Shown piece after piece: positions 57,714 to 58,579 of a stretch of DNA of 64,000 nt (its first letter is position 1; every line of letters begins with the position of its first letter). The position numbers and the translations under genes were made by a program. The notes beneath the pieces are model-generated. The model worked only from the letters and a program-made list of their open reading frames with translations. It was not told the origin of the DNA and did not search any database. The DNA is from Haloterrigena salifodinae (lineage in GTDB: Archaea; Halobacteriota; Halobacteria; Halobacteriales; Natrialbaceae), in contig NZ_RQWN01000003.1 of NCBI RefSeq assembly GCF_003977755.1, forward strand, positions 372,001 to 436,000, in the 5' to 3' direction.

Positions 57714-58247
57714 ATGGCCAAACGCGAATCAATAGGCGACCCGAGACGGTCGTTCATGGCGAAAGGGGTCCTCGCGGCAGGGGCGCTGACGCTCGGAGCG
57801 ACGCCGTTCGGGACAGCCACGGGGAGCGCACAGCGAGAGCAAACAGCGGTCTTCTCGAATAATTACTATCCCGAAGCGGGCTTCGACATCGTTTCGCCTC
57901 TCCAGACGAGTGCGACGGTCGAGATACTACAAGCGGACGGGGAGCCCGTTCCCGAGATCTCCCAACCTGACGAGTGGACCGGATACATCATTCGCTACGA
58001 CATCGGCGACGTTCGGGAGGCGGGCATCACGACGTTTCTATTCACGCGCGGGCAACGACTGAGCGCCGGTAACAGGGGTACGATCGGTGAAGACGCGTCA
58101 GTACTGAGTTCCCAGTTGAACCTGCTCAGTACCTCGGTTACCGAAGAGACGGAGACCGGACCGCAACCGCTCGAGGAGGACGAGATCGACGCCTTCGAGG
58201 AAGCGATCAGGGACGATGACGACGACCCCGAGAACGGAGGAGAGTAA
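57714..58247 (+). CDS. Exported paralogue of a tandem pair, unknown family
   Basis: The 177-residue protein has a twin-arginine signal (RRSFMAKGVLAAGALTLGA) and AxA-type site around TGSAQ, followed by a beta-rich domain homologous to the next protein: VFSNNYYPEAGFDIVSPLQTS, EISQPDEWTGYIIRYDIGD, LTRGQRLSAG-like, SSQLNLLSTSV. An acidic tail ends it. The pair at 58250 lacks the signal. I do not recognise the family; the blocks suggest a small all-beta or calcium/ligand-binding protein. ATG at 57714 was preferred to one 13 codons upstream. Confidence 0.78.
   Translation: MAKRESIGDPRRSFMAKGVLAAGALTLGATPFGTATGSAQREQTAVFSNNYYPEAGFDIVSPLQTSATVEILQADGEPVPEISQPDEWTGYIIRYDIGDVREAGITTFLFTRGQRLSAGNRGTIGEDASVLSSQLNLLSTSVTEETETGPQPLEEDEIDAFEEAIRDDDDDPENGGE
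58236..58242 (+). promoter_or_regulatory. Shine-Dalgarno site coupling the tandem pair
   Basis: GGAGGAG lies 7 bases before ATG 58250 and within the last codons of the preceding gene, so the second protein is probably made from the same mRNA. Confidence 0.6.
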
Positions 58248-58249
58248 CG

Positions 58250-58579
58250 ATGACACAGAATACCAACGGACAAACGCTCGTCTTCTCGTACGACTACAAA
58301 CCCGGCTCGGAGTTCGAGACGATCGCACATCTGCAACCGGGGACGACGATACAGCTCCTCCGGACCGTCGACGGGGAGACTGTCTCGGAGATCTCGCAAC
58401 CGGACGAGTACACCGGTCACGTAATCCGGTACGAATCCTCCGGCGAGGCGTTGGAGCCGACGACGATCCTGTTCGTCCGCGAGGGGCGCATCAGTACCGG
58501 CGAAAGCGCGTCGTTGGATACCGACGCGTCGATGTTCAGTTCGCGACTGAATCTCCTCGCCACGACGGTCGAGCAGTGA
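58250..58579 (+). CDS. Cytoplasmic paralogue of the tandem pair, unknown family
   Basis: The 109-residue protein aligns over its whole length to the secreted partner: VFSYDYKPGSEFETIAHLQPG, EISQPDEYTGHVIRYESSGEA and SSRLNLLATTVEQ. It has no signal sequence and should stay in the cell. It starts 2 bases after the partner's stop, behind a strong Shine-Dalgarno site, so the two are one operon. The function is unknown. Confidence 0.82.
   Translation: MTQNTNGQTLVFSYDYKPGSEFETIAHLQPGTTIQLLRTVDGETVSEISQPDEYTGHVIRYESSGEALEPTTILFVREGRISTGESASLDTDASMFSSRLNLLATTVEQ

Follow-up and report, generated by a model that had tools for sequence, protein, structure and literature searches.

A duplicated Tat substrate of haloarchaea whose signal-less copy may leave the cell with its sister

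Among substrates of the twin-arginine translocation (Tat) pathway, a protein without a signal can be exported piggyback on a partner that carries one, as in PaoABC and HybOC (PMC4273604). In PaoABC, the signal-less PaoB and PaoC are both exported on the Tat signal of PaoA (PMC4273604). Here we describe a tandem gene pair in a 64,000-nucleotide stretch of Haloterrigena salifodinae DNA (the window), in which gene A encodes a small protein with a Tat signal and gene B encodes the same domain without one. An earlier note on this DNA called B cytoplasmic, a label that does not follow from the missing signal, because signal-less Tat partners can be exported in this piggyback fashion (PMC4273604). 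We propose, with a probability of roughly 0.4, that the pair is a duplicated Tat substrate in which B joins A in the cytoplasm and hitchhikes out with it. The analysis further delineates a family of exported proteins, as yet uncharacterised, in Natrialbaceae and one neighbouring family of archaea.

Results

Layout of the gene pair

The earlier note described two tandem open reading frames of one family with a Tat signal in A only, and both the reading frames and a search of the genome with B bear this out; the search recovered the site of A at E = 1.8e-22 (49% over residues 7–108). At the level of sequence, this similarity is far beyond chance. To that description we add the 34-aa acidic tail of A, a downstream A–B–C set, a third paralogue in most relatives and the correspondence, by alignment, of B to the mature domain of A (Table 1). 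The N-terminal region of A reads DPRRSFMAKGVLAAGALTLG...GSA-Q, in which DPRRSFMAKG is followed by a hydrophobic stretch and then GSAQ, as would be predicted for the signal-bearing partner of a hitchhiker system. An SRRSFMxKGAL...AQ signal is common to A and its orthologues, which are present in many genera.

Table 1. Features of the window pair and of related loci. Positions without a locus prefix are those of the window.
Feature	Position	Strand	Remark
Gene A, Tat-signal protein, 177 aa	57714..58247	+	ATG 57714, TAA 58247; signal, domain, acidic tail
Tat signal peptide of A	57714..57830	+	MAKRESIGDPRRSFMAKGVLAAGALTLGATPFGTATGSA, then Q; from sequence, cleavage site putative
Twin arginines of the Tat signal of A	57744-57749	+	
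Conserved domain of A, ~100 aa	57840..58142	+	Profile match and alignment A2
Acidic low-complexity C-terminal tail of A, 34 aa	58143..58244	+	Absent from B
GGAGGAG Shine–Dalgarno of B	58236-58242	+	Within the last codons of A, 7 nt before the ATG of B
Gene B, 109 aa	58250..58579	+	ATG 58250, TGA 58579; domain of A without signal or tail
Conserved domain of B	58271..58573	+	47% identical to the domain of A; alignment A2
Leader of a family Tat gene (example)	L041:4716-4818		
~630-aa Tat protein gene	L041:2214-4232	-	
~630-aa Tat protein gene	L074:6576-8477	+	
~630-aa Tat protein gene	L097:7032-8861	+	

The start of B 2 nt after the stop of A, behind a GGAGGAG site, was likewise correctly noted. 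The frame of B extends a few codons 5′ of its ATG before meeting a stop, so that a hidden signal is impossible. In most B-bearing relatives, GGAGGTGA or a variant lies at the position matching the Shine–Dalgarno of the window. A signal-less B with no hydrophobic N-terminus, as a hitchhiking partner would be, sits at the stop of A both in the window and at 22 further loci; across these loci the gap between the stop of A and the ATG of B is −1 to +2 nt in 23 of 23, with the Shine–Dalgarno inside the end of A.

Family identity and fold

Searches of Pfam, NCBIfam and PHROGs returned no family for the window proteins, and a PDB sequence search gave no credible match. AlphaFold2 (AF2) modelling of B on 78 relatives yielded a small, strand-rich fold (pLDDT 88.7), and a model of A built without an alignment reached a pLDDT of 38. 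Judging from the model of B, A and B share one small beta-barrel domain. The B model resembles the small beta-barrel folds (OB and SH3-like) in being small and rich in strands, but Foldseek against the PDB and viral models found nothing at E ≤ 0.001. The highest VIA-align Z, 5.0, was for a chain of 6ted, and chains of OB or SH3-like type scored lower; values of about 5.0 are common by chance and not informative. SH3_16 gave weak matches in six members, and SH3_3 or SH3_16 matched relatives only at E of about 0.005; in the window proteins neither Pfam model matched at E ≤ 10, and the curated cut-off was not reached.

Several RefSeq records from Natrinema, Natribaculum and Haladaptatus, entitled ‘calcium-binding protein’ or ‘twin-arginine translocation signal domain-containing protein’, are family members. 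The calcium-binding label is a record name only, and no calcium-binding family model matched in our searches. A literature search found no paper on the A/B/C family.

Distribution and genomic setting

With B as the query, 69 of the 125 genomes of the window’s family gave a match, 43 of them two or more. With a class-wide profile in which the signal region was kept, 119 of 391 genomes matched, and weak matches among them may reflect the signal only; a profile of the domain alone matched 12 of 393 genomes of the phylum, all in the window’s family or in family f6. From these searches the domain appears confined to Natrialbaceae and one neighbouring family. Plasmids of Haladaptatus and Halorussus also bear members, family f6 clusters with the Haladaptatus record in the tree, and named hosts include Haloterrigena salina, Halopiger, Natrinema, Natribaculum and Haladaptatus.

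Linked A and B genes are a conserved unit across many genera of haloarchaea, which goes against the outcome that the earlier note had named as refuting a partnership, namely homologues that usually stand singly. Its term ‘pair’ holds for the linkage of A and B but is incomplete, as the common arrangement has three genes and A can also stand alone. A solitary A-type gene (with twin arginines and tail) was found in at least nine genomes (G050, G063, G075, G041, G042, G069, G011, G018 and G019), a few of which may hold a divergent second copy; B is thus not obligatory for A everywhere. Most A–B loci include C, a divergent third copy whose N-terminus is signal-less or vestigial and lacks a working Tat motif. 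The genome of the window has five family members: the window pair, which lacks C, and one full A–B–C set (L041; G000:C3:442.8-444.3 kb), ~13 kb downstream on the same contig.

The window pair is flanked by a phosphoglucomutase-like gene and an M50 site-2 protease. In many species (L104, L094, L086 and others), the cluster lies between thyA/folA (thymidylate synthase and DHFR) and an aconitase or DUF255 thioredoxin-like gene; through this shared thyA/folA slot, close subfamilies and distant ones correspond in position. A divergently transcribed gene for a ~630-aa Tat protein, for which Pfam and NCBIfam searches gave no match, adjoins A–B–C in about ten genomes (Table 1). Its nearest subgroup occurs mainly at A–B–C loci, and more distant paralogues are encoded elsewhere. 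Natribaculum-type genomes (L081 and L083) carry four to five tandem members in which intact and broken signals are mixed.

A conserved leader upstream of the Tat genes

The Tat genes of the family are preceded by a leader of ~70 nt, consisting of GAAACRRTSG-N6-YTTATNC, a short CCCC/GGGG hairpin, GTGAGAG and the ATG, which is kept even where the proteins are only about 28% identical. Single leaders fold into a short hairpin, and RNAalifold on the leader gave no consensus pairs. When the pattern was searched in 61 genomes with one mismatch allowed, matches fell almost only at family loci and a reversed control gave none; because of this near-confinement, the regulon search offered little functional hint. 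The A gene of the window has no such leader, so expression of this copy probably differs from that of the downstream set. Elsewhere in the same genome, a gene for a Tat cupredoxin/glucose-sorbosone dehydrogenase-like protein (L142:3-1466, minus strand) carries the same promoter-like motif, GGAACGGTCG...TTTATCC, which is also present in G027.

One signal is retained at each multi-gene locus

We compared the architecture of 57 loci with 132 members, picked from the strongest matches rather than at random, and called twin-arginine (RR) status by a simple pattern and a hydrophobic-stretch rule. Loci hold 1 to 5 copies. In the A type the SRRSF-type signal is intact and there is usually a tail of 19–70 residues, acidic or Gly/Asn-rich; B is tailless. 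An intact RR member was kept in 45 of 45 multi-member loci, and in 43 of these one member combined intact RR with a tail of ≥19 aa. RR was lost in 60 of 120 members of multi-member loci and in 1 of the 12 members that stand singly (11 of 12 with RR). Signal and tail went together (RR with tail, 51; RR without tail, 19; RR lost with tail, 3; RR lost without tail, 36; Fisher 1.7e-11, a value that overstates independence, as a phylogenetically independent pair test was short of informative pairs). At loci other than the 23 with a fully signal-less B, the tailless partner still has an N-terminus like that of a signal, in which the twin arginines are broken (RH, RQ, EQ, GQ, ER, KG, RD or TR). Some B-type partners retain a hydrophobic, AxA-like N-terminus and might be able to use Sec.

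Repeated signal loss and co-variation of A and B

A tree of 101 columns places the A, B and C proteins of trio loci in a clade each (SH-aLRT 94, 97 and 99, respectively), with 20 rows in the orthologous B clade. A single clade of all fully signal-less B proteins was not rejected (p = 0.31). A single origin of all signal-less partners was rejected by the AU test: for groups named after the tree had been inspected, it rejected as one clade both the B proteins with the broken-signal partners (p = 0.007) and the distant subfamily’s partners with broken signals (p = 0.008). Leaving C aside, 11–15 changes of signal state are counted. Judging from the AU rejections, these state changes and the differing broken motifs, signal loss arose more than once.

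Estimated from substitution rates, A, B and C are under purifying selection: dN/dS is about 0.1–0.4 for B and C (Nei–Gojobori, pairs with enough changes) and, for A, 0.21–0.55 against near relatives, where changes are few, and 0.30 against L077. Across 15 trio loci, A and B distances are correlated (r = 0.76; partial r = 0.70 given C, the sole control at these 15 loci), and the correlation of A and C given B is 0.03. Gene conversion was considered as the source of the A–B co-variation and excluded, because the A–B distance within loci equals that between loci.

Discussion

We suggest that A is a small Tat-exported protein, built of a signal, a small beta-barrel domain and an acidic low-complexity tail, and that its gene was duplicated to give a copy, B, that shed tail and signal and remained translationally coupled to A. 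B would be translated from the message of A straight after it, fold in the cytoplasm and bind A, presumably through the shared domain. The resulting heteromer would leave by Tat on the signal of A, carrying B with it, to form an extracellular A–B assembly; C, if present, could be one more signal-less subunit or a relative that acts inside the cell. Translational coupling, the one Tat signal retained per multi-gene locus, repeated signal loss and co-variation are consistent with cytoplasmic assembly followed by export by way of the signal of A. Against this reading stand the solitary A-type genes and those B-type partners that might use Sec.

The same four observations also fit a partner that stays inside, which is the inside/outside pair of the earlier note and the main rival reading. 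B, and C, would then, for example, hold the domain of A until Tat export, titrate A or sense within the cell the ligand that A meets outside, a reading that we consider possible if doubtful. No kind of export signal is present in B, repeated loss of signals in partners is what selection for a cytosolic role would be expected to produce, and the A–B co-variation is also compatible with a chaperone-like contact. However, Pfam and NCBIfam searches gave no match to a Tat proofreading chaperone, and B is the mature domain itself, with no feature that marks it as a sensor.

An unlikely explanation is that A, B and C act independently, their adjacency and shared expression being inherited by-products of tandem duplication and the lost signals reflecting relaxed constraint or a separate cytosolic use that involves no contact with A. 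The readiness of the family to duplicate, the loci where A stands alone and the lack of C–A co-variation once B is accounted for are in keeping with it; the near-invariant stop–start coupling with its Shine–Dalgarno, the purifying selection on B and an A–B co-variation that goes beyond C argue against it. The coupling and co-variation speak, from sequence, for the partnership that the earlier note had proposed. Its suggested toxin–immunity form, with A exported against neighbours and B shielding the producer, suits the outside/inside layout and strict linkage but is highly improbable, as A and B are one domain without immunity-like asymmetry, the extra part of A is a low-complexity acidic tail, Pfam, NCBIfam and Foldseek gave no toxin domain in A (a missing match being no proof) and A stands alone in many genomes.

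Hitchhiking of B on A has an evolutionary corollary that we advance tentatively: a Tat substrate may have repeatedly made its own passenger, in that the duplicate lost its twin arginines in several lineages and would leave the cell solely in a heteromer with the intact sister. If true, the loci would be natural replicates of the evolution of Tat hitchhiking. Here the putative rider and its carrier are paralogues, and living species preserve intermediates (intact RR, broken RR, no signal), which would make the evolution of piggyback export directly testable. Like the Escherichia coli hitchhikers PaoABC and HybOC (PMC4273604), A–B combines one subunit bearing a Tat signal with a co-encoded signal-less partner; PaoABC and HybOC are cofactor enzymes of dissimilar subunits, whereas A and B, a candidate complex, are paralogues of one small domain.
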